Below are positions 29,700-62,687 of a DNA stretch of 64,000 nucleotides, in pieces. A program made the translations under genes and the position numbers. The notes beneath the pieces are model-generated. The model did not search any database. It had not been told where the DNA came from and saw only the letters and a program-made list of their open reading frames with translations. The first letter of the stretch is position 1, and each line of letters begins with the position of its first letter. The DNA is from Ulota crispa. Lineage: Eukaryota > Streptophyta > Bryopsida > Orthotrichales > Orthotrichaceae. The stretch covers positions 8,993,219-9,057,218 of the forward strand of contig OY987251.1 in the NCBI GenBank assembly GCA_963920765.1. Reading direction: 5' to 3'.

Positions 29700-29866
29700 C
29701 GTCTTCACATTCTACATCGGCTAAGGCCACGTACGCTGGTAGCGAAGCAGCATCAGCTTGCCACCTACAAAGTACAAGTGGATTCATGGCCAGCATGCAC
29801 AAACCGAATTCATCACCACCAGGGCACCAAACCTGACAAAATTCCTCACAACTGCATCTCCATCAG
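29700..29866 (+). promoter_or_regulatory. Promoter and leader exon of MDR gene 1, without a TATA box
   Basis: This aligns with the promoters at 56500-56635 and 61860-62010. Shared blocks are GGATTCATGG, CCAGCATGCA, TCATCACCAC and CATCTCCATCAGGTTC. Where the other two have TATATAA, this copy reads CTACAAAGTACAAG (29765-29778), so the TATA box has been lost. The leader would end at the donor CATCAG/GT at 29866. Confidence 0.55.
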
Positions 29867-30616
29867 GTTCGCATACACCTCCCGCACTTTCCATCCTTTC
29901 CTCAGCTGCAGTGCTTTGATTCCGGACGAGTACTCTCAACGTCATCGACTGTGGACTTTTTGCTCTAGAGTATGCAATTTTAAGACGCACTGGTGTTGTA
30001 GCGCGTGTGCCTGCTCCAGATCATTGATGTGTGTTGTGCTTCAGCTCAAAATAGGGTTTGATCGCTTAAAGTCGGCTTCTTTTCGACTCCAGGGAGGTAT
30101 TGTGAGCGATTGTGTTCCACAGTTCTACGTGAGTCTTATATCAGTTTGGTACGAATTCTTGTTTCAGAGCTCTATTACTAGGACTTTCAGGTGTCCGGAA
30201 CTGGAGGGCTGGTATCTGAGGTTTCAGCAGGCGATTGAATTTGCTTCTGGTGTACTAGAATCAGCTAGTTTGAATGGATATGCGGTTTACTTTAAAAGAA
30301 TTGACATTCATGTGTGCTTCACTAGTTCTGACCGACAGTTATTGTGACGGTCGTTAATTTGGGAAAAATGGTACATTTTGGAACTTTCAGCAAGTGAGTC
30401 AAGAAGTTTGAGGTGATTACCTCAAACTGACACGTGCCCTCACTTGAGAGGAGGGATTTGTGAGGAAAAAAATCTTAGTGGTTCATATTGAATATGATAT
30501 TTTTGAATCTAGTTTTAAAGTAACTTTTTGGGTTTGAGGGGAAAACAAATTGGGACCCCTGTTTTTCTCAAATTAACGAATATTGTGTTCAGTGTTGATG
30601 TGCTCTTGTGTTGCAG
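29867..30616 (+). other. Intron in the 5' untranslated leader of MDR gene 1
   Basis: The donor CATCAG/GTTCGC and acceptor TTGCAG/AGAAT are both conserved in MDR gene 2 (56636-57126), and the third copy keeps the donor. The intron is 259 bp longer than in gene 2, nearly all explained by the MITE at 30352-30589. This is inferred from conservation, not from a transcript. A 189-codon frame at 29778-30347 crosses the donor and is not supported as protein. Confidence 0.55.
30352..30589. mobile_element. MITE with AACACCATATT-type ends in the leader intron of MDR gene 1
   Basis: CGTTAATTTGGGAAAAATGG at the left mirrors TTTTTCTCAAATTAACG at the right, followed by AATATTGTGTT. MDR gene 2 lacks it: its GATCGTCACAGTGTTGATG corresponds to sequence on either side of this insertion. 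The extreme left 10 bp or so are missing. Confidence 0.75.
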
Positions 30617-30644
30617 AGAATTGATCTTGGGATTGGAGAGAGCC

Positions 30645-31950
30645 ATGTCGAACAAGGCAATTGTGCAAGAAGGGTTCAACAAGGAGAACCCCTTGAGCAC
30701 TTTGAAACTCGTCACTTGCCCCATTCCTAGCGCCGGAGCAAACCAAGTGGTGGTGCACGTCACGGCGCGTCCCATCAACCCCACGGACTTTTTATCCGTG
30801 CGCAGCGGCTCTGTCGGTGGCAATGGCACCGGCACCGGCACCATTGGCTCCGAAGGCTGCGGCGTTGTACATGAGGTATCCATGCTTGAACTCTACCATT
30901 CTATCCCGACATTCTGTCACATGCATGTGCTACACAATCCATAAGAGGTTGACCAAGCATTTAGGTAGGTATACCCATACTTGACCATGAACTATGTACT
31001 CATGGTCATTTCAATTCTAAAATGACCACCTAGGTACATAGGGACGAAATTGGGTACATGCTCAACTATGGGTATACCTGCCTTATAACATCATGTTCCG
31101 TTATCACATGGATTTCAAAGCACAACATTCAAATAGTCACACCTTTGATTAGTTGTCCTGTCAAGTTCTCCAGGCTGGCAAGGGCGTGACTGCGGTTCAA
31201 AAGGGACAGCGAGTGGTGACAATCACCGGCACCCAAGTGTTCAAAGGCAACGGCGCATTCCAGGAATACATCCTGCTCGACGCATCGCTCGTCTGGCCAG
31301 TGCCCGACGACATGACCGACGAACAAGCCGCGCAGGCCGTCATCAACCCGTGGACGACCTACTCCATGTTGCACGACTTGCAAGTGCCGAAAGGGGAGTA
31401 CGTCATCCAGAGCGCCGCGGGCTCCACGCTCGGGAAGCAGGTCATCTCGCTGGCCAAGCACTGGGGCATCAAGACCATCAACATCGTCCGCCGTCCGGAG
31501 CAGAAAGCGGAGCTGCGAGCGTTGGGCGCTGACGAGGTGATCTGCTCGACGGAGGAGGACGCCGTGGCGCGAGTGAAGGAGATCACGGCGGGGAAGCTGG
31601 CGTGGGGCGCCTTGGACGCCGTGAGCGGCAGCATGACGGCCACTTTGGCGAGCTCAGTTCGAGGCGGCGGCCAGGTGTTCGTGTACGGAGTGTTGAGTGG
31701 GACGATGTCGTCCATCAGCACGTTGGATCTGTGGCGGAATGTGGAAGTCCGGGGGTGGATCATCTACGACAAGATCATGCCAAGTGTGGAGAAGAGTCAG
31801 GCTGTGGCGTCGGCCGTGTCGCCGTTGCTTGTGAGTGGGGTGATTCCTGTGGCCAAGTGTGAGAGATGGGCGTTGGAGGATTTTGAGAAGGCCATGGAGG
31901 TGGCGGAGAAGTCCGGAGGCGCTAAGAAGATCTTGCTCGTCAGCTCGTAG
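30645..31950 (+). CDS. MDR-family reductase, 2-enoyl-thioester reductase/quinone oxidoreductase-like (copy 1)
   Basis: Exons are 30645-30875 and 31174-31950 (GT-AG, phase 0), giving 335 aa. It is a zinc-free medium-chain dehydrogenase/reductase with the expected layout. The N-terminal GroES-like part has RPINPTDF (46-53) and GSEGCGVV; INPWTTYSML is at 134-143. The nucleotide-binding turn AAGSTLGK (158-165) is followed by INIVRRPEQ, whose two Arg suggest NADPH. LGADEV and GGGQVFVYG follow. The layout fits mitochondrial enoyl reductase (MECR/ETR1) and NADPH quinone oxidoreductases; the substrate is unknown. There is no clear targeting peptide, as MSNKAIVQEGF starts directly in the fold, so it is probably cytosolic. 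Relative to copy 2 it has four extra residues (GTGT, from repeated ACCGGC), and its intron carries a MITE. Confidence 0.88.
30964..31082. mobile_element. 119-bp MITE in the coding intron of MDR gene 1
   Basis: The ends GGTAGGTATACCCATA and TATGGGTATACCTGCC are inverted, with TTA on both sides (30961-30963 and 31083-31085). An inner pair, CATGGTCATTT-type, extends the foldback. The intron of MDR gene 2 (154 bp against 298 bp) lacks it. TTA duplication with GG-starting ends fits the PIF/Harbinger type. Confidence 0.85.
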
Positions 31951-32012
31951 AATACATGCCATATTCAACTTATGTTTGACAATCCAAAGTTCAAAAATAA
32001 GAATCATGATGC

Positions 32013-32386
32013 AGTCACACCTTCTCCATTCCATTGAATGCAAACATGGCAGGTTGTTAGCGATTGAAGGGAGCTCCATTCTTCGAAGATGGAGAAGTTT
32101 TCCTCTTCTCATTTGCGGGTGGAGACCTCAAGCTGTATTGTTTTCACCGCTCTTTGTTCACTCTTGTGTTCACCTTGGTGTGTCTCTATTTTGGTTTTAG
32201 TAATCGATTCTCCTCCTTTAATGGTCTTTTTATCATTCTCCATTCATTGTTCTCCACTTCTCTTAAAAGGAAATTCACACCTTCTTCTATGAAGAATTAC
32301 TTGCATTTGGCTCCTACTTGGTTCCTACTTTCACTCCACTTGTTCTCATTCTTCACAAAAGTTTGATTCTTGGAGAAGGTGTGACT
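32013..32386. mobile_element. Element with perfect 16-bp ends just 3' of MDR gene 1
   Basis: AGTCACACCTTCTCCA at the left and TGGAGAAGGTGTGACT at the right are exact inverted repeats. It begins 62 bp after the stop codon, so it may supply the 3' untranslated region or the poly(A) site. It is absent from the MDR gene 2 downstream sequence. Pyrimidine-rich frames inside are not recognisable. Confidence 0.75.
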
Positions 32387-32419
32387 AGTATGACTACCCC
32401 TAATGTGAAGATAGATTTT

Positions 32420-32935
32420 CTTTTGCTAGTTTGGTTCACCTAAATAGCATAGAAAGATCTTGAGTTTAGTAGTGGATTGAGTTCATGTAATAAATAATTA
32501 GTTCAAAAACATGTGTATAACATCATATTCCTCAATCACCATAGCCATGTATAGTCATAAATTGCATGCTTGATTTATTAGACTATGTGTAATTGATTGG
32601 TATAGTATGCATACTACCTTTAATTAAATCTAGATTATGTAAAATCTAAAAATAATAACAAAATTGCAAAACTTCATGGAAGATTTGTATAAAATATTGA
32701 AAGATGTGGGGTGTACAATGGGTTATGAATACAAAACATCTACAAGTCTATGTCCTACAACAACAAGAGATCTCCTTATGTTTTGCATACAAAATTTGAG
32801 ATTGCATGAATAGTTCAAGTTCAATGAAATGAGGCATATGTAAATCATTGGAATATGTCCTAATGTCCAAAAACCTAAATTGTGTGGAATTGCACAAATA
32901 GACCATAATTAGCTACAAACATATATAGTTAGTCA
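32420..32935. repeat. Dispersed 0.5-kb repeat (copy 1), possible gene relic
   Basis: This aligns along its length with 52985-53485 in the same orientation, sharing TTGATTGGTATAG, GCATACTACCTTTAA and CATAATTAGCT. Reading plus, both copies keep a frame like CKSLxYxLxSKNLxC then TIISxKHI, broken by a common stop. This is faintly reminiscent of leucine-rich repeats, but too short and decayed to call. Confidence 0.6.
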
Positions 32936-33398
32936 TTTACAAAACTGGTGAAGAAATGATTGTGTTAGGGCATCTCTAGCCGTCTAGTAAAAGAAGCCAG
33001 GCTAACAACAAGGATTTGGCGGTCACGTGAATATTGTGGTAATTTTTGAGTCCCACATGTTTGGCATCATGCAAACTTTGTGGTCCACAGGAAAGGGCAT
33101 TCTGCCTTCAATGTTTGGTATTCTGTCTTTGTTTGTTGTAGAAAATGTCAGCCAAGCATTGTTACTTTCTTTCTTATTGTTCCTTGTTTTAGGTGTGACC
33201 CAAGGAGGGTACCTTTTGCAAGTTGCAGAGAGGAATTGCAAGTTTGCACTGCCAACTTCTCTTTGATTGTTGTCTTGCCGTTGCTCATGTTTTGGCTGCT
33301 CTCTCTCTTTTCCAGCTTGCTGTTGTATTAGTTTTTGAGGAGCTCTAATCTTTGGGTACTTATAGAGATTGCTCAAATTGTTGGAGCTTAGGGCCTAA

Positions 33399-34141
33399 GG
33401 GTAGTTGCAAGAAACACTTCACAGTTTTGTGTCAAACACCCTTAAAACTGGTAGTACTAGGTAGTACTATGAGCTTTTGAAATAAATTTTTATTAAATAA
33501 AATAAAATATGGAAAATTTGTAAAGCACTTAAAAAATCATAGTCATGAAAATTCAAACCTAGAGTTTTTTTATTTTAAAAGTTATGCACAAAAGTAGAGG
33601 GACAAAAATTACCAACAAAAAGATAATTTGCTTTTTGCTTTTTAGGAAATAGGAAAAAATCTCAAAAAAATTTAAAAAAATATAGTCATTTTGGTCCATT
33701 GTGAGGGGCATTGACTGATGCAAATAATTTATCAAGAATGTTTGTTTCCAAACCCTAATGCCTGTCTAATGGATGCCCACTTTGAGGGAAAGTGGAGGGC
33801 ATATAATTTACATTTTTCTAAAACCCCTCAAAAAATCCGTGTAATGTTCAATTATGAACAACTCCCCAAATTTGTGGAATCAAATTCCTTTTTTTGACGC
33901 AATGCAATGTTGAAAACCCACAAAACAGCCAAGGTAGACATATTATCGGAATCCATTTAAAATTGGTGAATGATTTTAAAAAAAAAACCCAAAAAAACCC
34001 AATAGGTCCATAACTTCAATGTGAACCTTCCTCTAAATATTCACGTGAAAAGAAATTAGTAAGCAAAAGATACACCTTTAAAACCACACGCTGTGTAGCA
34101 AGGGGACAGAAAGCAAGACAAGTGTTTCTTGCAACTATCCC
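33399..34141. mobile_element. PIF/Harbinger-type MITE, 743 bp, TAA target duplication
   Basis: GGGTAGTTGCAAGAAACACT at the left is mirrored by AGTGTTTCTTGCAACTATCC plus C at the right. TAA lies at 33396-33398 and 34142-34144. A trinucleotide T/A duplication with GGG-starting ends fits PIF/Harbinger. There is no transposase; the body is AT-rich. Confidence 0.8.
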
Positions 34142-34144
34142 TAA

Positions 34145-36730
34145 AATGCATTATTTATTAAATTGAGAAAAAGTGACATTTGAGACTTTTAGATTTTATC
34201 CTTTTTTTTAAGTATTCATTGAATACTCTTTAAAAAACATAAAATCCAAAAGTCCCTAAATATCATTTTTTCCAACATAACAAACAATGCATTTTAGGCC
34301 GTATGTCCTTGTCAATGTTTGACTTTTGGCTTTTGTTAAGCTAGGTTGCAAGTACTTGAAGATTGGAGGTTGTTGTTTATTGTGATCAAAGACAAAATTG
34401 TGCTTTTGCAAAGCACAACTCTGAGAGATTTCAACGTCCACAATTCCTGCAATGGTAAGTCATCAAAGACCTAGTTTAATTATTTGAAATTGAATATTAT
34501 GTTGATAGATTTGTTGTTTTGTTAATTCAATGAACAAGCTACCAACATGGCAACATGCAAAGTAGGAAGAACAAAAACATAAACCTCATAAACTCTTTTT
34601 TACTAAAACATTTGCCAATATTGATCCTAAAACAAAACAAATACAAGACCAAACTAATACTACCAAAAAAAATTGCAATTCTTTTTAATTCTCTTTTAGG
34701 ATATCTTGGAAAAAACTAATACTCTTCAAACAAGTTTTGGACCATGTAGAAAAATTGTCTTTTCCCTCTTGCAAGAATCCCAAAAGTTGGAAAAATTCTC
34801 TTTTAGATATGTATGATTTTTTTTGACATCAATTCAATGAAGGTGATGACAATCATCTTTAGACATTTGCAAAGATTTTTTAGTAAAGCGTTATTAAAAA
34901 TTCTATACTCATAAAGATGTCTTCTTAAAACTTGCAGAGCTTCATTCACAAACATATTAAGATTGAGCTAGCATGAAAAGGAATAGTGGTTCAGATACGA
35001 ATTAGAAGTAGACGAGTTGAAGCCTTTAAGCATATCCACAATGTTATCTATGGTAAATTGTCCAACATAGAAAGTAAGAGTTTGCCTCCTCATCAACGCA
35101 TCCGCTTCCTGCTTCTGACAAACTTGTGGCTGATCTACAGTAGCTATGATCATTAATTTCAGATTTGCATATATAGCAACCTCTCTGACAAGCTTAAAAC
35201 CCTCAACTAATTGATAGGAGTTTAACTAGCTTGAATTAATTAGAGCAACTGCAAAAAACTTGAGGACATGATTATCTTCATTGAAGTATCAAAGATGGGA
35301 TGCATTCGATACACACCCAATTGCCCAAGTGCACGCCTTTAGTAATTGCATATCAAGAGTCATTTGTTTGTTTGTAACATGAGTATCTTGAACAATATTA
35401 TTTGTATGGAAATGAATCTAAAAGTTTGAAATTTATTGCAAAAAAATAAGTGATTTGCTGTTTCCATTGATTTAAAGTAGGTCTATAAAAGAAATTCATG
35501 TTTTAGCTCATGTACAATTAAAATTTACAATTAGCTTCTAAGAAAACTACCTCTAAATCTTCAAATTAAAAAATGGCCAAAATGTTCTTCAAAATTTTCT
35601 ACACATTACAAATTTAAAAAATATTATTTCAATGGTGTCAGTTACTTAACATGATTCAAAATGGTGATGGAAGTAGGAAAGAAACAAAAAAAAACAATTC
35701 AATTTAGTAGCACTTAGAATCATAGTCTTTTTTAAGAAATTTTGTATTTGTCTTGTAAGCAATGACATACAATGAAGGAAATTTAAGAATTTTTAGGAGT
35801 TTTTTTTTAGAATGCGACAAACATGTTTAAGTTTAATTATGTTACAGCACATGTTTGTTTCACAAAGTCTTGTCTTAAAGCGCAAAAGGAACAATCATCT
35901 TCCATTTATTTTGCTTAAACAACTTTGAGAAGTTTGGGAGGGAATGTACAAAGCAAATGGTTAAACTAAAACTTTTTTTTCTCAAGTCATAAATTTGAAA
36001 ACTAGATTTTTTTTGCTCATGCACATGTTACTTTCAATTTATTTTTGTTGGGTGCATGTTAGCAAGGAGGGGACTCACGCTGGCTTGGTTGTAAATTTAT
36101 TTGAAAATATTCAACAATGTGATATCACTCCTTACCTGTTGGACACGCTATCAAGTCAAGGGGGATTTGCCTTGAAAAATCACAAGGATTCTAATTGCAA
36201 CCATAAAAGACACATCAACTATAAAAATGTTATTTTGTACAGTTTTCTCATCTTGATCATTGAGACTTCTAAACTGTCAATGAATTGCTTCCTATAGGCC
36301 TATCTTATTGCAAGCTCTAAGTTGTTTCAAAGGTCAAGATAAGAATAAAAAATCATGGAATACAATATAGATTGAATCAATGGCATACCATAAGTTACCG
36401 TTGGTGAATATAGATCCTAAACTTTTAAATTCACAATTTGTCAGCAATCAATCCAACTTTAGCATGAGAATAAAGTTAGATTTGGCCATGTGGGCCATTA
36501 ACTTTACTTTGTTACCACAACAATAAATGAGGCTAAGAAATAATATAACCTATTTTGCTCGTAAGAACAAAATTCACAACAAAAAGAAAGCTACAAGTTA
36601 CAATATGCAACATACAAATTTTGAACTTCAATTCCAATTTTTTCTTCAACTCCTTGAGTTGAACATTGGTTTTGTGATATTGCTACTTCAAAAATCCAAA
36701 CAGGCAAAATGATAGTTTTGTGGAAAACCA
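34145..36730. other. AT-rich intergenic DNA, no gene seen
   Basis: At 34141-34297 the ends TAAAATGCATTATTTATT and AACAAACAATGCATTTTA are partly inverted, perhaps a small MITE placed against the preceding element. Frames such as 35995-36297 are hydrophobic, low-complexity and unrecognised. No RNA gene was seen. Confidence 0.45.
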
Positions 36731-36734
36731 ATAC

Positions 36735-37265
36735 AAATTTAAACTTATTTTTCAATTTAAATCAATCTAGAATTTGTCTGACTTTTATAGTCATCCACAA
36801 TTTTTGCTTTAGGAATTAAAGACAACATATTTTCTTTTGCTTCAGCACTCATAACTCTTTTATGCAAGTTTCAAATTGAATAAGTAATGGCTTCATGAAA
36901 AGCTAACTTAAATTCCCACTCTTTTGGCAAACTTTAATTCACTCTAATACTCTATTCAAATTTTATGGCCATCCAAAGTTTTAGCTTTCTAATGTTGTAA
37001 GCAATATATAGACTTTTTGTCACTTTAACACTCATAAGTTACTCATAAAAGCTCCAAATAGAACAAATAATAACTTTGAAAAAAACTTGTTCCATCTTTT
37101 AATTTTCCTCAAAGTTTTATTGTTAATAAAAATATGATCTGTCTTCTATAGTTGATCAAAGTCTTTGCTCCTTTTCATAAGAGACAGCAAACATTCTTCT
37201 ACTCAAACTAGCACAACTTTAAATGGCTAATTTCAAATCAAACAAGCTAAAAAATATTTAGAAAC
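36735..37265. repeat. Three degenerate tandem units of about 180 bp
   Basis: Each unit has, in order, TATRGTCATCCA-like, TTTTGCTTTA-like, CACTCATAA, then CAAATTGAATAAGTAAT-like and CCACTCTTTTGG/CCATCTTTTAAT blocks. Unit starts are near 36740, 36920 and 37110. Identity is low, so this is old. Confidence 0.4.
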
Positions 37266-40200
37266 TTCACATTAGAATTAAAAAAAAATCAAATTTTTTT
37301 TGTAAAATTCCTCAAACATAACAAGAGGTGTCTCCTTCAATTTTCAAGTCTAAATCTCCACCAAAACCCAATTCTACACAAATTCAAAATTTCTATAAAA
37401 CTTTCATAATTGCCATATGCCCATAGATCAACCCATACTCCTTTCACGTGGGTGGATTTAATGTATTTTCTCCAAAACCTATCTCTTATCCTTATTTTGA
37501 AATTACATAACTTCAAAATTCAAATAAAAAACAAAGTATCTTCTTATTTTCCTCCATTACTACTTCACATACATAATATGAAATTTGAAAATACTTCTAA
37601 ATTAAAAATGATAATATTAAGACATATTAATAAATTAATAGGGGTAATAAAATAGAGTTTCAAGACAATCTTTAGTTCTTCACTCTACCTGCAAAAACTT
37701 GAAGAAGCATTCAAAAATGGCGGCCCCGTATTCTTTGCGACCCTGTTTTAATCAAAATATTTGTCAAAATTTTCAACCAACATTGCATGCAACTTTTCCT
37801 AATAGTTCTTATATAATAATAATGGTCTTTGTTGGGACTTCCAAAACACCCTACAAATGTCATTTTTCAGCTGCCAAGTTCAACCCACACAACCTGCAAC
37901 AAGATGACCAATGCTCAAGCATCATGCTAAATGTTTCTATACCATCAGCTTTCCATGTAAGTTTGCTTTGGCAGTTGAGAAAGTATAGTTTCATCTTGTG
38001 GATGCTGATGCAGTGGTATAATACTAAGTGGCAAAAATGTTGATCCAGTAGTTGCAATGAAGGAACTTTAAATTCATGCTTCAGTCAGGGCTCTTCATCT
38101 TTAGGCTTAGACTAAACTCTTTAATTTGACATACTAGATCTAAGGTGTCAATAAAAAAAATGTAACCAAATGAATAAATTTTTTAGAAAACCCTTTTATT
38201 TATGATTGAAAAGAAGGTGTCCTCCTAAAGCTATTTCACATGACATTATTTATATCTCATCATTATCATAATCAAAATCTACTAAAGATATAACTGTTCA
38301 CATGTTTTTATATAATGTTTGCAGACGCAATGCAACAACGCAATTCCTATGCTTCCTAAACCTTGAGAAATCTAGAAATTTAGATTCCATATTTTATTTA
38401 CATTTGCAAGTAGTTCTTTAAGGTTAGAAACTAGTAGATGAAAAGTTTAACAACATAATTGTTCTAAGTACTTCATACTAGATGTTATTCAACACATATG
38501 CTTTCTAAAGCCTCGATAAACTATAAAGCATTAAAATCTATAACATTCATGAAAGTTGTAATTGGATATTCAAAAATGATGTTCTAGATTATATTTGCAT
38601 AAACAAATTAGATACATTGATTTGTCAATGTCTTTAAGAATATAATATATGATAGTTATTAAACAATAGCTAGATTCAAAGAATATTTATCAAATTTCAA
38701 ATACTCTTGAGAAGGTTGTTGCACCATTCATACACATGGTCTTAAAATGTTCAAGACATTGTTTGCGTTCTAAACAGTTACAAAAAAAAACTCAACAATT
38801 GAAATGTGTGTTTAATGCTCAAAAAATTCTTTTTCTTCCTTACTTGTTTTAACATTTGCTAAGTTTATTCTATACTTCTATTTGGTTATTAAAGTATCTT
38901 TTTATTTGTTGATTTTTTCAATTTTTTTGCACAATATGCAAGTTTACAAGTTCCATTGGTTTGTCTTACTACTAAATAGTATGTATTTTTATTTAATCAG
39001 TGCCGCTTTAAAATTCATTTTTGTTTTTTTATTTTGCTCCTATTTGTCTATTACCAGAAATAACAAAATTCATATGAATATTTATTTGTTGCAGGTGCAT
39101 TGCAAAAAAAAATGCATCCTACATATACAAAAAAATGAATACATTGAAGATTTGTGCCAAAATTGTTGAGAGAGACTCTGGTTCTCAAGATTAGGTGGTG
39201 AGAAGAAAGAATTTTGACCATGACAAAAAAATGCTATTAATTTGTAGCTATGTCAATGTTAGCCAAGATTCTATAATCAGAAATGTTCATAGATCATCAA
39301 AATTCTAGGACATGGATACCGCACATTACAATCACAGTTGATTTCCAAAAGTAGCAATTTGTCTTGCAAGATGCTTAGAGACCAAGTGGAGGGCCATCAA
39401 TCACAACATCAAATTTTTTTGTAGAGTATAAAAGCATGTTCAAGCGTTGAATGAAAGTGATGTCTCTAAACAAGACATGTTTGCTCAAGCTCTTGATTTG
39501 TACAAATAGAGACACAAAGTTCACAAGAGCTTTGCAATTTTGCATTGTTGGATAATCCTTCAGAGTATGCCTAGATGGATGGAAAGACCTCATGAAGAAG
39601 TTAGACATGCTACTATTTGAAGGCATCATGTTGAAGGTATTTATGTTTTAGAAAATCAACAATATCTACCAAATAAATGATCTGACGAAGTATCTACAAA
39701 ACATATTGATGAAGATAGAATAATTGTCACTATTCAAAATGCAAGCAAAAATAAGGGCATTGTATTTAGCAACTTCAATAGAAATAGAAGTGGAGCTAGC
39801 CAAGCCTCTGGTAGAGGTTATTTAAGAAGGCATATATGATCAAAGATTGTCAAGGAAGCAATTAAATCTGCCAAAGGGAAGTGAATGCAATTAAAGTGCA
39901 AGCGCGAGCAACATAGAACATTAGCATAGCCATGAAAAAAAAAAACCAATCCACAACTGATTAGTTAGTTATATAATTATTTATTCTGCAAAGAGATTTA
40001 TAAACTGATCCTCAGAGGTTGAGACTAAAAAATACTTCAAATTGAAAAACAAATTGGAACTTCATTTTATTTAGCAGCTTGTAGTAGAAATGGAACAAAG
40101 TATAATCCCAGATATTGTATCTGATTTTTGATGCATATCTACGCCTACAAATATAAGAGTGTCAGCCACTATAACATAGTTCAGACCAAACTCTCCTCTA

Positions 40201-44940: not shown

Positions 44941-44949
44941 AGGATGTAA

Positions 44950-46833: not shown

Positions 46834-47040
46834 TAAGCACCTCAATTCGGACATTTAATGTCACATGCATGTGCCTACAAATGCAAAAGGTGTTTTTGGT
46901 ATATGTGTGAATACTACTTTTTGAATTTTATGTTTGCATTTGAATTTTGAGTGTGAATGGTTCTAAAATGCATTGGATTCAGAAGTGTAGTGTAATGTGT
47001 ATGTGGTTTTTTGAAGCAATTGGATAATAGACTATAGACA

Positions 47041-51873: not shown

Positions 51874-52000
51874 ATTACAAGGAAATAGCATTTTTTTGAC
51901 TCAGCACTATGACTACCATGAGTCATTTTGTGTCCAAAATGACTTCAAAATGACTCATGGTAGTCATAGTTTTGAGTCAAAAAAGCGTTTTTTTCTTGTA
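51874..52000. mobile_element. Foldback MITE with TTACAAG/CTTGTA ends
   Basis: The arms pair from TTACAAGGAAATAGCATTTT through CTATGACTACCATGAGTCAT back to AAAAGCGTTTTTTTCTTGTA. The loop is under 20 bp. TACAAGAAA ends recall the CACTA-type elements at 46682 and 54962. Confidence 0.8.
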
Positions 52001-52984
52001 GTATATATCAATTGACTAAAAAAACTTAGAGAAATAACTCTAGTTTATTTTAAATCTTGTCAAGGCTTTGAAAATAATTTAAAAATGAAACTAAAAAACA
52101 TTTGAACTTCAGACTAAACAAAAGCTTCCAACCACATATACTACATCACAAAATTCCATGTACATAACAAGATATAAATTGTCAAAGATTACCTTCTTGC
52201 ACCTATAGAGCTAAAGACCATTATGCACTCAAGAATTAATAAAAACATTATCAAGAACTAAATATTTTTATTTTTATATTTACCAAAAGTTAGATTTCAT
52301 CACACATCCAACATAAAAAATTGCACAAAAATTGAGTTAAAAGTTAACAAAATATGCACTTTTGAAGTTGTTCTTCTATATTGCCTTGTAGTAGACATCT
52401 TTATACTTGAAAATCCACCAAAAAATCCTCCAAGCTTGGAATTTAGTGTGCTCAGTGTGTTTTGAAAGCTACTAGTAGTCTAGCACAAAGAATAATTTCA
52501 TAAAATATCAAAAAATAAAAAATAAAAATTGAGCAAATAGGAAGCAAAACAAACAATGAAAAACATATATAGAAGTGATGTGTATTCAAAAACAAAGCTT
52601 AGCATGTCTTTGTCAGACAAGTGAGAAGAGGAAAGGAAAAGAGTAGGCATCCAAGCCTTTCTATCTTGCTTGCCAAGGTCCAAAGGTAGAAGCCACATCT
52701 CTATCCTATAAACTACTAACCATAATCCCAATCAATGATTCATATCAACTCTAGAACTATAACCCAAATTTAGGGTTGATTGCCTTTATAATTCAAAATA
52801 TTTTTTTTGGGCAAACCCAACATCACCATTGTGACCAAATCACAACTTTATCTCAAAATAAACTATATACATGCCACAATTCAAATTATAAAGCATTAAA
52901 AACAAATATAGTTGCTAATTTCATATTCCTTAATTCTAAAATTTTAATGAACCATGATAAAATGTGAAGAAAATTTGATTTTTT
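52001..52984. other. AT-rich intergenic DNA, no gene seen
   Basis: The frame at 52498-52731 (minus) is hydrophobic and low in complexity. No repeat ends were recognised. Confidence 0.4.
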
Positions 52985-53485
52985 TTTGCTAATTTGGTCT
53001 ATCCAAATAGCATGGAATGATCCTTCAATAATAGATCCAATTCATGTGTTAAGTAATCAGTTCAATTTTTTTTTATATATAACATCATAATCCCTCAATC
53101 AGCATAGCGATGTACAGTCATAAATTGTATGCTATTAAACTAGGTAATTGATTGGTATAGCATGCATACTACCTTTAACTAAATCTAGATTATGTATAGT
53201 CTAAAAATAATAATAAAATTGCAAAACATCGTGAAAGACTTGTATAAAACATTGGAAGATGTGTGATGTATATTGGGATATGAATGCAAAACATTCACAA
53301 GTCTGTATCTTACAACAGCAAGAAATTTCCCTATGTTTTCCATACAAAGTTTGGGATTGCACGAATAGTCCAAATTCAATGAAATGAGGCTTATGCAAAT
53401 CATTAGGATATCTCCTAATATCCAAGAATCTAAGTTGTCTGCAATTGGATGAATTGACCATAATTAGCTGCAAACATATATAGGG
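52985..53485. repeat. Dispersed 0.5-kb repeat (copy 2), possible gene relic
   Basis: This is the partner of 32420-32935, estimated by eye at about 80% identity over its length with small indels. It lies 3 kb upstream of MDR gene 2, whereas copy 1 is 0.5 kb downstream of MDR gene 1. Its plus frame reads LCKSLGYLLISKNLSCLQLD then ELTIISC, weakly like leucine-rich repeats. Confidence 0.6.
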
Positions 53486-53814
53486 TGAACAAATGATTGT
53501 GTTATGAAAAGAGTCAAGGGCCTTTAACCCTTTCTTAAGTTCTTAACTAACTTGCAGAATCTTTTAATACCACAAAGTTTTTGCCCCCTAGCTATAAAAA
53601 AGAGGTAATTGTAATCTCTGATGGCAATTTCAAAGCTTGAATTGGTGAACTAGAGAAACAGGTTTTGTACATTTTCTGAATCCTGAAGATTTTTTTTCTC
53701 TCCTCTCTAAATAAGTAAGGAAAGTTTTGATTTATTCATGCTAAAACCCAGATTTGAACTCAAAATTTCCCCTTATAGAAATTAACAAATTTGCAAGGGA
53801 ATATATTTCGGCTT

Positions 53815-54215
53815 TCCTTAAATTTAGAAATTGCTAATGAATCTTTTTGTTGCTTAACACATAGTCATATTGGCATCATTATGTTGGGATGTAATGTTCC
53901 ACCAACACTTAAAAGCCTTCTTGTTGTAATTTGATGGTAGGGGACTGATGTTCATTATAATAATGTTCATTACAATAGTGCTTCAAAAAAAAATTGGCAA
54001 AAAATAACACAATGTCAATATTCAAACTCCAACTTTGAGTATTAAATTTTCTATACTTTCATATTAAGTGCTATTTCCTTGAAAAGCCAACCATTTGAGC
54101 TTGAGTATTGTTGGCTTGTTGCAAAGGAATTTTTGTAGCACTAACGAAGATACTCTTGAGAAGTTGATGTCAAACATCCAAGTATTTGTTGGTGAGAGAC
54201 AAGGGTCATATAGAC
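53815..54215. repeat. Segmental duplicate upstream of MDR gene 2
   Basis: This matches 60178-60700 in the same orientation: AATTGCTAATGAATCTTTTT, GTTGGGATGTAATGT, TGTGCTATTTCCTTGRAR-like and AGACATCCAAGTATTTRTTG-like blocks, in order. It lacks the foldback that interrupts the other copy, so it is the empty site. It is part of the block that includes the MDR promoter. Confidence 0.75.
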
Positions 54216-54961: not shown

Positions 54962-55109
54962 CTACAAGAAAATGTAGTTAATTTGGTCATTTTTGTAAAT
55001 TTGGATGTGTCAATTTAGACATTTTTTTGTCAATTAGATCACCTTTTTATCAATTTGAACACTTTTTTGTCAATTTGTATGTGTCAATTTGGACACTTTT
55101 TTCTTGGGA
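54962..55109. mobile_element. CACTA-type MITE with TGTCAATTTGGAC subrepeats
   Basis: It starts CACTACAAGAAAATGTAG, the canonical plant CACTA terminus, and ends near GACACTTTTTTCTTGGGATA, a degenerate mirror. Inner TCAATTTGGACAC variants match 46682-46833. Confidence 0.7.
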
Positions 55110-55442
55110 TATAAGGTTGAAATACCATAAACGGTTAAAATAAGGCACTTTAGCTTGAAGATATGGGGAATTTCTTGAGAAAATAAGCTCAATTTGTGGA
55201 GAAACAAGGATAAGGAAGAGTGCAAAAAAAAATAAAAAAATAAAAAACAAAAAAAAAAACTTAATAATGAATATATTATGCAATATAAATGTGGATTTAG
55301 GGTTTGGACTGATTTTGGTTTCATAGGTGCACCTTAAACGACTACCTCTAAAACCTTGTTCTAAAATAAATTTGAACCAATCAAGTGCAAGGAAAGAGCA
55401 TCTTTCTGAAATCTCTTTCAAAACCAACTCTTGTTGGTTTAA

Positions 55443-55808
55443 CCCTTGAACGTCGACAAGGACAAAAATTATCCTCTAGCCTCCGGAAAACACTCTGTAT
55501 TGCAGAGAAATATAGTTTTTTACCTGATTTTTTAGTAGAAGTGACTATAGATACATGGTGCACCATGAAAAGCAAAAAGTAATCTCAGTTAAGGCGCTCA
55601 TATTTTTTGATAACCCAAATTGTGAGAAGATTAAGAGCCACGGTGTTAGGTCCCATGCTGCCCTTTCTACAATTTTCATGAGGGCACCAATCACATCATG
55701 CACTATTGACTTTTGCAGCTTTAAGAAACAATATTCTAGTGGTGGGCACATGCCACAACACTGTACATACCACTATAGAGGCATGGCCACCCAGCCAATG
55801 TTCAAGGG
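55443..55808. mobile_element. TTAA-flanked MITE, piggyBac-like ends
   Basis: CCCTTGAACGTCGACAAGG at the left mirrors GCCAATGTTCAAGGG at the right, with TTAA at 55439-55442 and 55809-55812. The body differs from the 226-242 bp and 0.9 kb types, so it is a third subfamily. Overlapping frames of 60-85 codons on both strands are unrecognised. Confidence 0.8.
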
Positions 55809-55930
55809 TTAAGAACACTCTACTTTGCCATTATTGGGCAGTAACTGTTTATGGTATTTCTACCTTATCCTTGGACGCATGTTGAGCATAGCGGCTCAAA
55901 AATCTGGCCTCCACATGCTATTGATGCTAA

Positions 55931-56255
55931 GGTAGATAGCTCAAAAACCGTCTAGGCTCTAAAATCGCTCACCCTCCAAAATATTCTCCCTCTGTACATG
56001 TATTTTTTCATAGATTTCCAAAATATACAAGTGGTGTACATTTGAGGAGGTGAGCGGTTATAGAGCCCTATGCCACTTCAACTTCAAATCTTCATAATTA
56101 ATTCTACAAAACTCCAAAAAATATGAAACAATTTGGGTTAGATGTCAATTCTTCTTGTCTTTCAAGGAAATTTTACTGGAAAAATATTTCAAGAAGTTCT
56201 ACCTCCCCAAAATTCAGTTTCAGCCCTTAGGTGGTCGGTTTTCGAGCCTTCTACC
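55931..56255. mobile_element. MITE with GGTAGGAGGCTC-type ends beside the MDR gene 2 promoter
   Basis: GGTAGATAGCTCAAAAACCG at the left mirrors CGGTTTTCGAGCCTTCTACC at the right. The interior is the reverse of 23653-23968 (CACCTCCCCAAAATTCAGTTTCAG-like, GTACATTTGAGGAGG). It ends about 270 bp upstream of the TATA box. Confidence 0.75.
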
Positions 56256-56635
56256 TTAGCTGTGATGTTCTGGCCTGCACGAGGACCCGGAGCCCGGGCT
56301 TGCTCAAACCCCGTTCCGGGCGAACCGATGGAGATGCTCGTGGAGACACCTTTATCATGAATGCGCCCCTGCTGATTCTCTCGCTGTTTCCGTCGAGATC
56401 ACCGACATAGGTGGGCCACCATCGCATCCTCATTCCACCGTACAAGCTTCGCAGGCTTCCTCACTCGCAGGAACGCCGTGCCACGGAAGCGGGTGGCGAA
56501 GCAAGCGTCCTCTTGCCAAACACACCGTATAGTATATAACTGTGACTCATAGTCATCAAGCAAGTACTGAAACAAACTCATCATCACAAAGACACTCACG
56601 TAGACTACATTCTTCGCACTCTACATCTCCATCAG
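56256..56635 (+). promoter_or_regulatory. Promoter and leader exon of MDR gene 2, with TATA box
   Basis: TATATAA at 56533-56539 sits about 100 bp before the leader donor CATCAG/GT at 56635. The upstream block AGGAACGCCGTGCCACGGAA, then GTGGCGAAGCA, is nearly identical at 61828-61860 in the third copy, so it is probably a conserved control segment. It contains the palindrome-like CCGTGCCACGG. Confidence 0.65.
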
Positions 56636-57126
56636 GTTCACACAGTCCTCTCTTTCTCCAGCTCATTGTGCTTCGATTCTATATGCACACACTGTCGACA
56701 ATTGTGCTCAATTGTGCTCCAAAACATGCATTTTCATGAATCATTGTTGTGGCTTATGACTTTGCTTGAGTTCGTTGACACGCATTTTGCTTCAGCGCTA
56801 GTTTAGGGTTTGATCGATTCATGAATTTCGAAATCGTGTTCGCCTCGATCCTTGGGATGTGTTTTTAGGGTTTGTGATGGATTATGTATCGATTGAACGT
56901 GTGGTCATGTTTGGTGATGGGGGTGTGATTCGAGCTACGATTCTGTGACTTTCAAGTGTTTGGAGCTGGAAAACTGGTGTAGATCCCAGATATGTTCAGT
57001 CGGTGGCCGAATTAGGTCAATTGTGCTAGAATTGGCTGGTCTGTTCCCAGATTTGAGGTTTTGTTTGGAGTAATTGATCGTCACAGTGTTGATGTGCTCT
57101 TGTGTTGATGTGTTCTTGTAGTGCAG
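56636..57126 (+). other. Intron in the 5' untranslated leader of MDR gene 2
   Basis: The donor ATCAG/GTTCAC and acceptor AGTGCAG/AGAATCG are conserved in gene 1. The interior matches the third copy at 62010-62690 (ATTGTGCTCCARAACATGCA). It contains two TTTAGGGTTTG telo-box-like sites (about 56803 and 56866), and duplicated GTTGATGTGCTCTTGTG near the acceptor. Inferred by comparison of copies. Confidence 0.55.
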
Positions 57127-57154
57127 AGAATCGATCTCGGCGTCGGAGAGAGCC

Positions 57155-58304
57155 ATGTCGAACAGGGCGATCGTGCAAGACGGGTTCAACAAGGAGAACC
57201 CCTTGAGCACTCTGAAACTCGTCACCCGCCCCATTCCTAGCGCCGGAGCAAACCAAGTGGTGGTGCGCGTCACGGCGCGTCCCATCAACCCCGCGGACTT
57301 CTTCTGCGTGCGCAACGGCGCTGTCGGTGGCAATGGCATCATCGGCTCCGAAGGCTGCGGCGTTGTCCACGAGGTGCCCATGCTCGAACTCTACCATTCT
57401 GTCGCATGCATGTGCTGCACAATCCTTAACCGGTCGACAAAGCAAATACTTTGTATGATGTATTCCAGGACGCCTAGAATGTAACTGCATTCAAATGCTC
57501 ACGCCTGACGGACGCTTGTGTATCCAGGTTGGCAAGGGCGTGACCGCGGTTCAAGAAGGACAACGAGTGGTGACAATCATCGGAACCCAAGTGTACCAAG
57601 GCAACGGCTCATTCCAGGAGTACATCCTGCTCGACGCATCGCTCGTCTGGCCAGTGCCCGACGACATGACCGACGAACAAGCCGCGCAGGCCGTCATCAA
57701 CCCATGGACGACCTACTCCATGTTGCACGACCTGCAAATACCGAAAGGGGAGTACGTCATCCAGAGCGCCGCGGGCTCCACGCTCGGGAAGCAGGTCATC
57801 TCGCTGGCCAAGCACTGGGGCATCAAGACCATCAACATCGTCCGCCGTCCGGAGCAGAGAGCGGAGCTGCGAGCGTTGGGCGCCGACGAGGTGATCTGCT
57901 CGACGGAGGAGGACGCCGTGGCGCGAGTGAAGGAGATCACGGCGGGGAAGCTGGCGTGGGGCGCCTTGGACGCCGTGAGCGGCAGCATGACGGCCACTCT
58001 GGCGAGCTCGGTTCGAGACGGTGGCCAGGTGTTCGTGTACGGAGTGATGGGCGGGATGACGGCGTCCATCGGCATGCCGGATCTGTGGCGGCATGTGGAA
58101 ATTCGAAGTTGGACAATTTATGACAAGATCCTGCCGAGTGTGGAGAAGAGCCATGCTGTGGCGTCGGCCGTGACGCCGCTGACTGTGAGCGGGGCGATTC
58201 CCGTGGCCAAGTGTGAGAGATGGGCGTTGGAGGATTTTGAGAAGGCCATGGAGGTGGCGGAGAAGTCCGGAGGCGCTAAGAAGGTCTTGCTCATCAGCCC
58301 CTAG
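57155..58304 (+). CDS. MDR-family reductase, 2-enoyl-thioester reductase/quinone oxidoreductase-like (copy 2)
   Basis: Exons are 57155-57373 and 57528-58304 (GT-AG, phase 0), giving 331 aa. This is the paralogue of the gene at 30645-31950. RPINPADF lies at 46-53, AAGSTLGK at 154-161, INIVRRPEQ follows, and LGADEV and GGQVFVYG are kept, so it should bind NADPH in the same way; the substrate is unknown. It starts at the first ATG after the leader intron, in the context GCCATGTCG, as in copy 1. Residues of the central coenzyme domain are almost unchanged between copies, but a patch around VMGGMTASIGMPDLWRHVEI differs strongly (copy 1: VLSGTMSSISTLDLWRNVEV). The intron is the short, insertion-free form. 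The frame is intact. Confidence 0.88.
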
Positions 58305-58922
58305 AGAGTCGACGTTGTAGAACAAGGATCTCATCCGGCTTGGCAAACTGCCCAATCTAGTGGGTGGATCCTGGGTGAAGACTCTCAGATTTTCCACCTG
58401 CCATAATTGGAAAAGGTTAGTGCACTAAATAGTGCATTTTGGGTGCCCGCACACTAATTTCTGTACATTTTACACTATGTAATTGCTTACTGATACTACA
58501 GTTACAGTAACTTTCATCAATAATTTACTGTATTATAAAGTTTTCAAAGAACCTAATAACAATAATGACGCTGCAAAAAAACAATTGAGCTCTGTCCAAG
58601 TTGTAAACCATGTGAAACTCAAATATCTAGATTGCATTTGCCTCCAAGTGGTCATGCAATGAGTCATGGGGTAACTTTCTAAAGTAAGGTAACTGTAATG
58701 TTTAGTGTAGTGTAATCAAAAAATTAAAACTAATTTTTTTGTAATGCTCATTTGGATTTGGATATTTTGTTTGGAATTTATTACCTTGTTTGGATTTAGA
58801 TACCTTATTTGACTATTTTGTATCAATGCCTAGTTGCGATCAAAAGTTGTTCTTAACTTATTTTGGCTTTTCAAAATCTTGGAAGTTTTGGGAATTGTTC
58901 TTACTTCTTAGGTTCCACTTAT
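58305..58922. other. Downstream region of MDR gene 2
   Basis: The first 100-150 bp are GC-rich and probably 3' untranslated sequence; AT-rich DNA follows with no gene. CTGTATTATAAAG and GTGTAATCAAAAAATT stretches are unremarkable. Confidence 0.4.
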
Positions 58923-59836
58923 GTACAGTACCCGGAAACAAGTATACGTACTAATGACGTTGACATTCAAAAAACTTTCACTTCTTGATTTGAAACGGGG
59001 TCACCTTGCCTCTTTTAGGCTTGAAAATTTTATATTTTGTTCTTACCCCAATCCTAATCAAGTATATCAAAATCCAACTTCAAAAAATTAAAATCCAATT
59101 TTTGATAAATGATTTTGTGTCAAATATCTTGGTTTTACAAGAAATTTGATTGAAAAACATTGGTGATGAATTTTAGAGATGTGATCGCATGGGTATATAG
59201 GTAACATCCATACGCACATCCTCCATGCTAATAAAAAAAAACCTTAAGGAAAGCTTTGATCTTCAAGGATTTAGTGAGACTTGTGATATGTCCAATTTTG
59301 TAAAGTAGATATTTTTCATTTCTCATAGGATATTTTTCATTTCTCATAAGCTTTTCACCAAATAAACACAACATCATGTCCAAAGGTACAAACTTAGTCA
59401 CATTGTATGAGTCAAAGAGCACAAAAAATGAGAAATTAAAAATATATAATTTACAAAATTTGGACATATCACAAATCACTCTAAATCCTTTGAAGATCAA
59501 ATCTTTGTTACTTAAGGGTTTTTTTTATTAGCATGGAGGATGTGCGTATGAATGTTACCTATATACCCATGCAATCACATCTCTAAAATTCATCACCAAT
59601 GTTTTTCAATCAAATTTCTTGTAAAACCAAGATATTTGACACAAAATCATTTATCAAAAATTGGATTTTAATTTTTTGAAGTTGGATTTTGATATACTTG
59701 ATTAGGATTGGGGTAAGAACAAAATGTAAAATTTTGAAGCCTAAAAGAGGCAAACTAGCCCCATTTCAAATCAAGAATTGAAAGTTTTTTGAATGTCAAA
59801 ATCAGTGGTACATATACTTGTTTCCGGGTACTATAC
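58923..59836. mobile_element. 0.9-kb foldback element with arms of about 400 bp
   Basis: The ends TACAGTACCCGGAAACAAGT and ACTTGTTTCCGGGTACTATA are inverted. The arms (about 58923-59333 and 59428-59836) pair along nearly their full length, including GAGGATGTGCGTATGRATGT and GATATTTGACACAAAATCAT on both sides. The loop is about 95 bp. The minus frame at 59228-59500 comes from the loop and arm tips and is unrecognised. Arms this long would make a long double-stranded transcript. Confidence 0.9.
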
Positions 59837-60177
59837 AATGTTATAATTTGGTATATTGATCAAACCCTTCTATGGGTTCCAAGTTGAAAGTTCACATTTT
59901 CTACTAACAAGGATAAAATCAATTTTTTTGATTTTAGGTTGCAACTGATTGATTTTGTTTCCTTTTTGAGGCTCAAGAAAAGAGCAAGTTCTCATAACTA
60001 GAAATAACACTCAAGATTTCCCAAATTCAATGTTTTGGTGGTAACTTTCAAAGGTTTAATGTGATTTGCCAAGTGAAAAGACTTAAAGTACAACTGTTGT
60101 CACCCTCCTAGTTGACGTTTGTGTTGGACCATGTTTGAGGCCTAGAGTCTATGATAAAAGCAATACATGTTTTCCTT
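59837..60177. other. AT-rich intergenic DNA, no gene seen
   Basis: No frame or inverted ends could be supported between the 0.9-kb foldback and the segmental duplicate. Confidence 0.4.
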
Positions 60178-60700
60178 GAACTTTGAAATTGCTAATGAAT
60201 CTTTTTGTTGCTGGACAAGTGGTCACACTAGCATCATTGCGTTGGGATGTAATGTACTACCAACTCTCAAGTAAATTCTTGTAACAATTTGATGGCCTAC
60301 GCTACAAGAAATCCATGGTTGAATCTACAAAAAGTTGACAAACATTGTGACCTAATCTACAATACAATGTAGATTAGGTCACAATCTTTGTCAACTTTTT
60401 ATAGATTCAACCATGGTTTTCTTGTACTAGCTAGTACTAGCTTTCATTATAACAATGTTTGTTAGAATAATGCTTCCAACTTTTTTTTGTGGCAATTCAC
60501 AACAAAATGCTAACATTCAAACGCCATGTTTAAGTATGAGATATTCTTAATATTCATACTATGTGCTATTTCCTTGGAGGATCAACCATTTGATATTTTC
60601 ACATTGATATGAACCTTGCTGGAGTGGATTTTTAGTTGCACTAAAGGAGATACTCTTGCGAAGTTGACGTTAGACATCCAAGTATTTATTGGTTTGAGTG
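60178..60700. repeat. Segmental duplicate upstream of the third MDR promoter copy
   Basis: This aligns with 53815-54215; the extra length is the foldback at 60303-60426. It lies 1 kb upstream of the third promoter copy, as its partner lies 2 kb upstream of the MDR gene 2 promoter. So promoter and upstream DNA were duplicated together. Confidence 0.75.
60303..60426. mobile_element. Foldback MITE with TACAAGAAA ends
   Basis: TACAAGAAATCCATGGTTGA pairs with TCAACCATGGTTTTCTTGTA, and the arms continue through TGACAAAGATTGTGACCTAATC-like sequence to a loop of about 5 bp. The uninterrupted homologue at 53935-53965 shows the empty site. Confidence 0.85.
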
Positions 60701-61209
60701 GGATTTATCAAACGTTCCACAAAATGCAAGTAACTTACTACAAGTAGTTTATCCTATAATCACTCCTCTATTTTCAAAATCCATATCTTTTAGGGTTTAT
60801 TTTCAAATTTGGATAAATAGATAATGCAAGAAAGGTTTTAGAGTTCTTTAATTAATTATGCAATTTTTTTTTCTATTTGATAAAAAAACTTCTAAAGATA
60901 GAGCATATTAGCTATGAAGACTTTAGTTAAACATACAACTTATGACCCCAAGGCCTTAGCTATAGCAAATTCAATTGTAAAATATCAATAACAACTTAAA
61001 TATGTCAACTTGATTAGCAATTATGGATGACAACAAAGGCCAAAAAGGAAGAAGAAGGCCAAAGATGAAAATGACAAAGTATGATCATGTATATATGATA
61101 ACCAAATCTCTAAGGAAGTGACAACAAGGAAATTTCCAATTTGGGCTTAATCTTGACCTTACCTCATTGAAATCTTGATAACTAACACATACTTCAATTG
61201 TTTAAGAAT
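60701..61209. other. AT-rich intergenic DNA, no gene seen
   Basis: No frame, repeat ends or RNA gene was recognised. Confidence 0.4.
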
Positions 61210-61534
61210 GGGAAAATTTCATGAATACCCTTGAAATTTGTAATATTTACATAGATACCCCTACTTTTTCAGAAATTACACAAACACCCTTGGACCAAAA
61301 ATTTAGGCATTCATTTGTTGTGCTTGTACTTCCTTCATGACCAATGTTGAAGAAGGGAATGTAATGAAATAGAAAAGAAGCAAGGTGCGCACATAGGAAG
61401 AAGGGAAGTGACATGCACAACATAACAAATGCCTCAAGATTTTGGTCCAAAGATATTTACGTAATTTCTGAAAAAGCAAGGATATCTATGTAAATATTGC
61501 AAACTTAAACAGAGATATTCTTGAAATTTTCCCT
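61210..61534. mobile_element. MITE, GGGAAAATTTCATGGATACC family
   Basis: GGGAAAATTTCATGAATACC at the left mirrors GATATTCTTGAAATTTTCCC at the right. It is exactly the size (325 bp) and in the same order as 26622-26946, including ACATAGATACCCCTACTTTT. It lies 150 bp before the third promoter copy. Confidence 0.85.
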
Positions 61535-61669
61535 TTAAAAATTTGAAACTTGATACAAAACCTTGACTTGATTATGTTTTAAATGATACCATAACCATGA
61601 CATTTGGAGTATTGTAGCTATTGTAATTAATTTTTGAACTGAGGCCCAGTGAAAATAGGGTAAACTGCC

Positions 61670-62687
61670 TTTGAGGTGGTGTAGGTGCGCCTTCCCTTTG
61701 GAAACACCATCCTGGCGAAGGCGCCTCTGCTGTTTCCGTCCAGAATACCGCGCATGGGTGGACATGGGTGGGCCACAACCGCATCCCCGTTCCATTACAC
61801 ATGCTTCGCAGTCTTCTTCACTCGCAGGAACGCCGTGCCACGGAAGCAGGTGGCGAAGCAGCGACCTCTCCCCACACACACACCATATATATAACTGGGA
61901 TTCATACTCAGCCAGCATGCAGAAACGACGGAAACGAACTCATCACCACAAAAACACTCACCTTCACTAGATTCTTCACACTTCGCATCTCCGATCCATC
62001 AGGTTCGCACATTCCTCTCTTGATTTCTCCTGCTGATTGTGCTTTGATTCTGAATTCTAGCAATGTCAACCATTGTGATCAATTGTGCTCCAGAACATGC
62101 ATTTTCAAGAAACCTTGTTGTCGCACGTGTGTGCTTGAGTCCGTTAACACCCATCTTGCTTCAACGCTAATTTAACCCTTAAACGCCTATAGGGGATAGT
62201 ATATACGTTTGCATATAATTGTCATTTGTTACCAGTAAGAAATTTTAATTTGGGATCTCAAGTAGCTCACTAGAATTGCATTGATCTATTCTCCAACTTC
62301 TTCATTGGTCTTAAATGTAATAGAGATGTGGATTCATTCCAAAGACAAGAAAAATACGTCATATTGTATTGGTCACAAAGGGCCTTCCCGTCGTTCAAGG
62401 GTTCAAGTTTGATCAATTGACAAACATTGAAATTGGAATTTGTTTCTATTCTCAAGAGGTTGCTAGTAGAAAATGGGTCCAAATGAAGCGGTCCTAATCA
62501 ACATAAACATATCCTCATAAACATATCCTAATCAACACTACTAATCAACATTACTATATTCAAATTATCCTAATCAAGACGTTTGAAGATTTGGGTCATG
62601 TTTACTTGTAGTGGGTGTTTTCAGAGTTTGTGATGAGTCATGTATGATTTGAGCACGTGGCCATGTTTAATAATGGGGGCGTGATTC
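61670..62687 (+). pseudogene. Third MDR copy: promoter, leader and intron only
   Basis: The block AGGAACGCCGTGCCACGGAA, the TATA box TATATATAA (61885-61893), the leader and the donor CATCAG/GTTCGC (about 62002) match MDR genes 1 and 2. The leader intron continues to 62171, is interrupted by a TTAA element (62176-62401), resumes at about 62580, and matches gene 2 to GGGGGCGTGATTC (62683). There a CACTA-type end begins. No MSN..VQ coding exon follows in the window. The copy is either headless or its coding part lies beyond an insertion running past 64000. It could still drive an unrelated transcript. Confidence 0.75.
62176..62401. mobile_element. TTAA-type MITE inserted in the third MDR copy
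   Basis: CCCTTAAACGCCTATAGGGG at the left mirrors CCCGTCGTTCAAGGG at the right. TTAA precedes it (62172-62175) and the diverged TTCA follows. It is the same subfamily and orientation as 6062-6303. The intact sequence in MDR gene 2, CGCTAGTTTAGGGTTTG (about 56800), is the empty site. Confidence 0.85.

Follow-up and report, generated by a model that had tools for sequence, protein, structure and literature searches.

A transposon-eroded array of MDR genes in Ulota crispa and the probable mosaic ancestry of one of its copies

Chimeric tandem duplicates have been described that arose by ectopic gene conversion or unequal crossing-over (PMC3924832, PMC3449122), and so have introners and other introns derived from transposons (PMC9860276). 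Here we describe a gene family of the moss Ulota crispa to which both kinds of event may apply. In a stretch of 64,000 nucleotides of contig OY987251.1 (assembly GCA_963920765.1; C10:8993219-9057218; the window in the following), three genes of the MDR superfamily form an array; they are named A (29.6 kb), B (56.3 kb) and C (61.7 kb), and a further copy, D, is located on the same contig at C10:14.21 Mb. Like the chimeric tandem duplicates, the array consists of neighbouring paralogues with similar coding parts and divergent promoters, but the partner of its odd promoter is 5.2 Mb away on the same contig. We hold with good confidence that this is an array of three genes with a distant fourth member, eroded by transposons, in which C is probably a young pseudogene and A is a mosaic whose coding body was replaced. 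The processes invoked for such a mosaic are already known.

A preliminary description of the window had recognized two genes and one promoter-only copy, each with different insertions. The duplicated MDR family and the copy-specific insertions stand, but the third copy has both exons, in a broken frame. About 30 kb of the contig was taken from just inside the window end (the 219-base overlap was exact), and positions above 64000 are extended coordinates on this contig. Own-genome searches were made in the 275-Mb assembly. The parts of the three genes inside the window are:

29640-30332, plus strand: promoter, 5' leader and most of the predicted leader intron of A, D-type by sequence
29867 (GT) to 30616 (AG), plus strand: leader intron of A, splice sites predicted from sequence
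30645-30875, plus strand: coding exon 1 of A
31174-31950, plus strand: coding exon 2 of A (whole product 335 amino acids)
56340-57154, plus strand: promoter and leader of B, with a putative leader intron at 56636-57126 (predicted splice sites)
57155-57373, plus strand: coding exon 1 of B
57528-58304, plus strand: coding exon 2 of B (whole product 331 amino acids)
61690-62177, plus strand: promoter and first part of the leader of C
62614-62687, plus strand: leader of C between its two insertions, matching bases 520-591 of the B promoter block (78%)

The claim that promoter and leader occur three times was borne out by local and global alignment, with homologous blocks at about 29640-30332 in A, about 56340-57154 in B and from about 61690 in C. 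In a self-comparison of the window the leaders of B and C were 77% identical over 455 bp (E 3e-95). Local search matched the leader of A to that of B over 81 bp at 70% (E 1.6e-7) and 111 bp at 66% (E 4e-6), and to that of C over 219 bp at 66% (E 6.5e-9); in a global alignment it could be aligned with B along its whole length at low identity. These matches were found with the low-complexity filter on and are not limited to low-complexity stretches. The exons of A and B are open, as had been described, and their second exons are 93% identical (self-comparison). Pairwise dN/dS values of 0.21-0.56 indicate that the exons are constrained (C codons after the frame break excluded; NG86 estimates are quoted, YN00 having failed on four right-half pairs). 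In the four-way alignment A lacks, at 29767-29785, the TATATAA/TATAAA-like box that is present at the matching place of B, C and D.

The family is larger than the three members first recognized. Exon 2 DNA had nine matches in the own genome, namely A, B, C, two halves of D (C10:14.2156 and 14.2169 Mb), two places on C2 and two pieces of one place on C4. The two C2 genes and the C4 gene are more distant paralogues; all three have the break between exons 1 and 2 at about the same residue, and the C4 gene has an additional gap inside exon 2. At C10:14.266 Mb, about 50 kb from D, there is a decayed relict whose leader sequence is A-like.

When the four copies were compared, promoter and exons of A had different closest relatives. 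Over 383 four-way columns of promoter and leader (within 29640-30058), the p-distance was 0.225 between A and D and 0.180 between B and C, whereas the four cross pairs were at 0.368-0.373 (A-B 0.371, A-C 0.368). The same grouping was seen when promoter plus 5' untranslated region (218 columns; A-D 0.229, B-C 0.165) and the 5' leader intron (165 columns; A-D 0.218, B-C 0.200) were taken separately, with cross pairs at 0.358-0.388, and in each of these two blocks A was nearer to D than to B in a fraction of 1.000 of 2,000 bootstraps. At the third positions of the exons (332 columns), in contrast, A, B and C were close to each other (A-B 0.096, A-C 0.111, B-C 0.114) and D was remote from all three (0.229-0.244; A-D 0.238); none of 5,000 bootstraps placed D as near to A as B or C. 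Bases inserted only in D were left out of the alignment, so that its extra codons are missing from the distance and run-test counts. In every exon block A, B and C were at most 0.142 apart, and D stood at a greater distance from each of the three than any two of these from one another. In the central 240-column block of exon 2, A, B and C are nearly uniform, with 0.008 for each pair among them and 0.108-0.117 to D, which may reflect later homogenisation of the three.

Counts of informative sites gave the same contrast. Sites grouping A with D and B with C (AD/BC) stood against those for the other two splits at 58:9 in the promoter (58/67) and 3:20 in the exons (3/23) (Fisher 2.3e-10, exon-only); with intron columns included, the comparison was 58:9 against 20:20 (p 8.4e-5). 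On the AD/BC topology, the best of three tried, a model with proportional branches (log-likelihood -2316.45, 16 parameters) was 40.6 log units worse than one with separate branches (-2275.88, 20 parameters). These conflicts do not agree with one simple duplication series. Along A the AD/BC sites outnumber those for other proper splits by 25:4 in 30020-30332 and are outnumbered by 3:7 in 30591-30960. The final AD/BC sites ahead of the switch are at 30262 and 30332, and the affinity of A changes between about 30262 and 30591, an interval of about 330 bp. A miniature inverted-repeat transposable element (MITE) in the leader of A, at 30351-30579, falls inside this gap, which may be chance.

If the body of A came from the B/C lineage, the ratios of promoter to exon distance should agree for both splits, and they do: 0.180/0.114 = 1.58 for the B-C split and 0.37/0.238 = 1.55 for the old split. 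Exchange in the opposite direction would place all exons nearer to D (at about 0.14 by the ratio) than the 0.23-0.24 that was seen. At the 3' ends similarity is weak (B-C 69% over 114 bp, C-D 67% over 115 bp), and a direct match between the 3' ends of B and D was looked for and not found. The 455-bp 3' flank of A matched none of the 3' ends of B, C and D; its sole match was a 138-bp piece (62%) at the relict locus. Since the 3' flank of A is unmatched while those of B and C, and of C and D, match, the B/C-like tract in A appears to be bounded on both sides. At its 5' end, located to about 330 bp, the tract has another closest relative than its flank, which is what gene conversion predicts, and on the 3' side the flank resembles the end of no other copy.

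From these data we infer the following course. A would have begun as an older gene of the D type, whose promoter and leader descend from an ancestor common with D. At about the time when B and C separated, its coding exons would have been replaced by sequence of the B/C lineage, likely through gene conversion or unequal exchange between misaligned members of the array. The array has also been eroded by ordinary DNA-transposon insertions.

Copy C has several such insertions. Two of them are in the leader, the second with another element nested in it (no strand is assigned to any of the three):

62178-62613: insertion in the leader of C with a CACTA-like right end only
62688-64557 (1,870 bp; 62688-64000 inside the window): CACTA-like element with target-site duplication TTC, crossing the window end
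63300-63612 (313 bp): high-copy MITE with inverted ends, nested in the CACTA-like element

The CACTA-type end reported at 62688 is real. The element carries the ends CACTACAAG on both sides, of whose first 14 bases 13 agree in inverted orientation, and it is flanked by the 3-bp duplication TTC; the empty site in B reads GATTCGAGC, with one base different. With paired ends and a 3-bp target duplication it resembles non-autonomous CACTA (En/Spm) elements. The leader of C resumes after 64557 and continues to about 64738 (84.6% identity to B over 175 bp). The exons supposed to be absent from C were both found past 64000, exon 1 at 65080-65304 (90.7% to B) and exon 2 at 65876-66651 (91.4% to B). 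C therefore seemed promoter-only because the window ended inside a transposon insertion. In the four-way alignment a single base present in exon 2 of A, B and D is missing from C, and the frame of C ends at 269 amino acids, as against 335 in A and 331 in B. Because its leader intron holds the CACTA-like element and exon 2 has lost a base, C is probably a young pseudogene that would have lost its function. The alternative is that C is still useful, the leader insertions being spliced out and the 269-amino acid product or the RNA having a role. C has kept its exons, the splice borders of intron 1 and the TATA-like box, and its dN/dS to A is about 0.26 ahead of the stop. Against these features, the loss of a single base takes 60-odd residues off the end of the product, and the gene has several insertions inside and next to it; we regard continued usefulness as unlikely.

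For copy A, several observations weigh against a replaced coding body. The run-length test on the exons was mixed: A-C (p 0.0016, 27 shared polymorphic sites) and A-B (p 0.043) had low values, and the other four pairs were not significant (0.13-0.58). With third positions alone A-B (0.40), A-C (0.70) and B-C (0.45) were not significant, and the one low value was that of A-D (p 0.0006, columns 755-818), in the opposite direction. Intron 1 (70 columns) is ambiguous and includes two AD/BC sites, 30950 and 30954. Alignment is poor in the central part of the leader, where D lacks some of its sequence. The unmatched 3' flank of A could result from a later insertion or deletion, and unequal rates of single lineages in promoter and exons could also lead to rejection of proportional branches. 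The comparison is one of four copies of one species. As the run tests are mixed and their one low third-position value concerns A and D, replacement of the entire body describes the event better than a set of separately resolved tracts would.

In another explanation no exchange took place, A, B and C merely sharing strongly constrained exons while the likeness of the A and D promoters is an accident of rates. The dN/dS values and the weak third-position run tests agree with it. However, the third positions repeat the conflict (A-D 0.238 against A-B 0.096), the bootstraps placed A with D in both promoter/leader blocks, and constraint, which scales all pairs, does not by itself reverse their order. 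We consider this explanation quite improbable and prefer the replacement of the coding body of A. The reading first proposed, in which the third copy consists of a promoter alone and is cut off at the CACTA end, fits the lack of C exons after 62687 within the 64000 bases of the window (self-comparison), but leader, exon 1 and exon 2 at 64558-66651 of the same contig, together with the second end and target duplication of the element, refute it unless the assembly is wrong there, and we give it almost no weight. A recent assembly duplication or unmerged haplotypes in place of true paralogues are hardly credible, as A, B and C are about 10% apart at third positions and 18-37% in promoters and each has its own insertions.

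Copy D differs from the array in an interruption of its second exon by 934 bp (L010:7921-8854 = C10:14215920-14216853). This insert starts with CACTACAAAG, a CACTA-type left end, has ATCT on both flanks, and leaves both exon halves open; its right end did not pair with the left, so that the resemblance to CACTA (En/Spm) elements is one of the left end only. In the stretches scanned there were nine frame-keeping GT-AG choices. The best of them by a crude home-made score, GAG/GTCATC to GTACAG/ATC (slashes mark the predicted borders), has a donor resembling that of D intron 1 (GAG/GTCCAT), and after its removal the joined product is open and 334 amino acids long. We put forward only tentatively, as a doubtful but real possibility, that this transposon-like insertion acts as a spliceosomal intron; the sequence support is suggestive only. 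As in the introners (PMC9860276), the frame is kept upon removal at a GT-AG pair reaching the edge of the insert, but D is a single case, its splicing is predicted from sequence, and a repeated intron family is not in evidence.

The MITE carried by the D insert was used in an attempt to date the insertion. The nested MITE of C belongs to a very abundant family: its stretch was matched by 38 of the 40 candidates scored (from 5,126 first-look candidates for 62690-63780). It resembles the Tourist-like (PIF/Harbinger) MITEs, a family name that we assume here, in GGTAGG-type inverted ends and very high copy number; it differs in that the flanking TAA and TTA are inverted and not direct repeats. In a tree of 27 rows (the C, D and C5 copies plus 16 of the 38 rows matching this stretch and 8 of the 38 rows of a second search; branch supports not inspected), the D copy had the longest terminal branch, 0.089. 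In simulated neutral drift of present D both halves stayed free of stops and frameshifts in 0 of 2,000 runs at K 0.089, and in shares of 0.0065, 0.0415 and 0.18 at K 0.06, 0.04 and 0.02. The simulation supports retention of the D exon on the sole condition that the element was already in D when the MITE entered it. On C5, too, there is a CACTA-type end with a member of this MITE family at about the same position; as that member is not the nearest relative of the D MITE in the tree, carriage of the MITE with the element is neither shown nor excluded, and dating by the MITE was for this reason given up. Against an active D speak the dN/dS to A of 0.53 in the right half compared with 0.21 in the left (the A-B value for the right half is also high, 0.42), about 550 bp inserted just after the TATA-like box, and the unpaired right end of the insert. 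A relative of a family of internally inverted repeats (see below) is located in the D promoter, 3' of the TATA-like box (L010 about 4980-5275).

The encoded protein is predicted to belong to the MDR superfamily by its ADH_zinc_N (Rossmann) domain in exon 2, which scored 59.2 bits in A and 61.3 bits in B against a gathering score of 31.8. Exon 1 of A alone reached 21 bits for ADH_N (GroES-like; cut-off 23.5), a domain that continues past intron 1. The best relatives of the A protein among solved structures, though distant, are those of the mitochondrial 2-enoyl thioester reductase MECR (PDB 7ayc, 1zsy; E 1.5e-25 to 2.5e-25). The tyrosine of the MECR GNYG motif, which we take to be catalytic, aligns with valine in SGSVG of A, and with this residue not kept the MECR assignment was rejected. 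A PIG3-type quinone oxidoreductase (TIGR02824) was rejected as well (106.8 bits against an NCBIfam cut-off of 296.8), and all 21 NCBIfam families listed scored below their own cut-offs. The enzyme is best called an MDR-superfamily oxidoreductase with no substrate assigned.

Further insertions and repeats surround the array (strand given where assigned):

30351-30579: MITE-like element in the leader intron of A, 17 of 18 terminal bases paired, within the interval in which the affinity of A changes
30964-31082: Tourist-like MITE in intron 1 of A, target-site duplication TTA, absent from B, C and D
32402-32928, plus strand: repeat in the 3' flank of A, 81% identical to 52961-53483
52961-53483, plus strand: partner of this repeat, upstream of B
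53813-54193, plus strand: upstream block common to B and C, B side
60171-60693, plus strand: the same block, C side, split by a 125-bp palindrome (60302-60426)

Each MITE had been said to have an empty site among the copies. This holds for the CACTA-like element of C (TTC) and for 30964-31082 of A (TTA), and approximately for the palindrome 60302-60426 of C. It does not hold cleanly for the leader element of A, whose flanks have no clean match to an empty site and which has a relative in an intron of D (L010:7139-7384), nor for the insertion at 62178-62613 of C, for which no left end was found and where C lacks about 50 bp that B has. The intron 1 MITE of A shares with Tourist-like (PIF/Harbinger) elements, as we presume to name them, GGTAGG-type inverted ends and TTA on both sides.

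The upstream repeat reported for B and C was confirmed, the identity of 53813-54193 being 80% to 60171-60295 and 72.5% to 60443-60693. In the own genome its B side had four matches: itself, the two pieces upstream of C and a 47-bp piece on another contig. Since the repeat is nearly confined to B and C, the block duplicated between them extends beyond the promoter, at least 2.5 kb upstream of that of B. The repeat of about 530 bp shared by the 3' flank of A and the region upstream of B had 37 own-genome matches, full length only at 32402-32928 and 52961-53483 (the other 35 were partial); it may be the trace of a former boundary between units, or of a copy that once stood between A and B and was lost. 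A 916-bp inverted repeat between B and C (58922-59837, 87% over its length) is a foldback-type element. One family of internally inverted repeats is represented at 61208-61536, 26622-26947, 9336-9504 and 27609-27703, and an imperfect inverted repeat of 655 bp (78%) with internal direct repeats is present at 10440-11094.

On the minus strand, at 16660-18871, the window also contains an open reading frame of 418 amino acids with flavin amine oxidoreductase / NAD_binding_8 domains. It presumably resembles carotenoid isomerase, which suggests a photosynthetic host. The open reading frame that follows it, at 16660-17367, had no Pfam match.

For this gene family, a false promoter-only gene is removed, and A becomes a worked case of a gene whose regulatory and coding halves would have separate ancestries, with the breakpoint located to about 330 bp. 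If the insert of D is indeed spliced, it would be a one-copy conversion of a transposon to an intron, with empty sites in A, B and C, and the family would then show a DNA transposon becoming an intron and allow comparison with sister copies that were left undisturbed.

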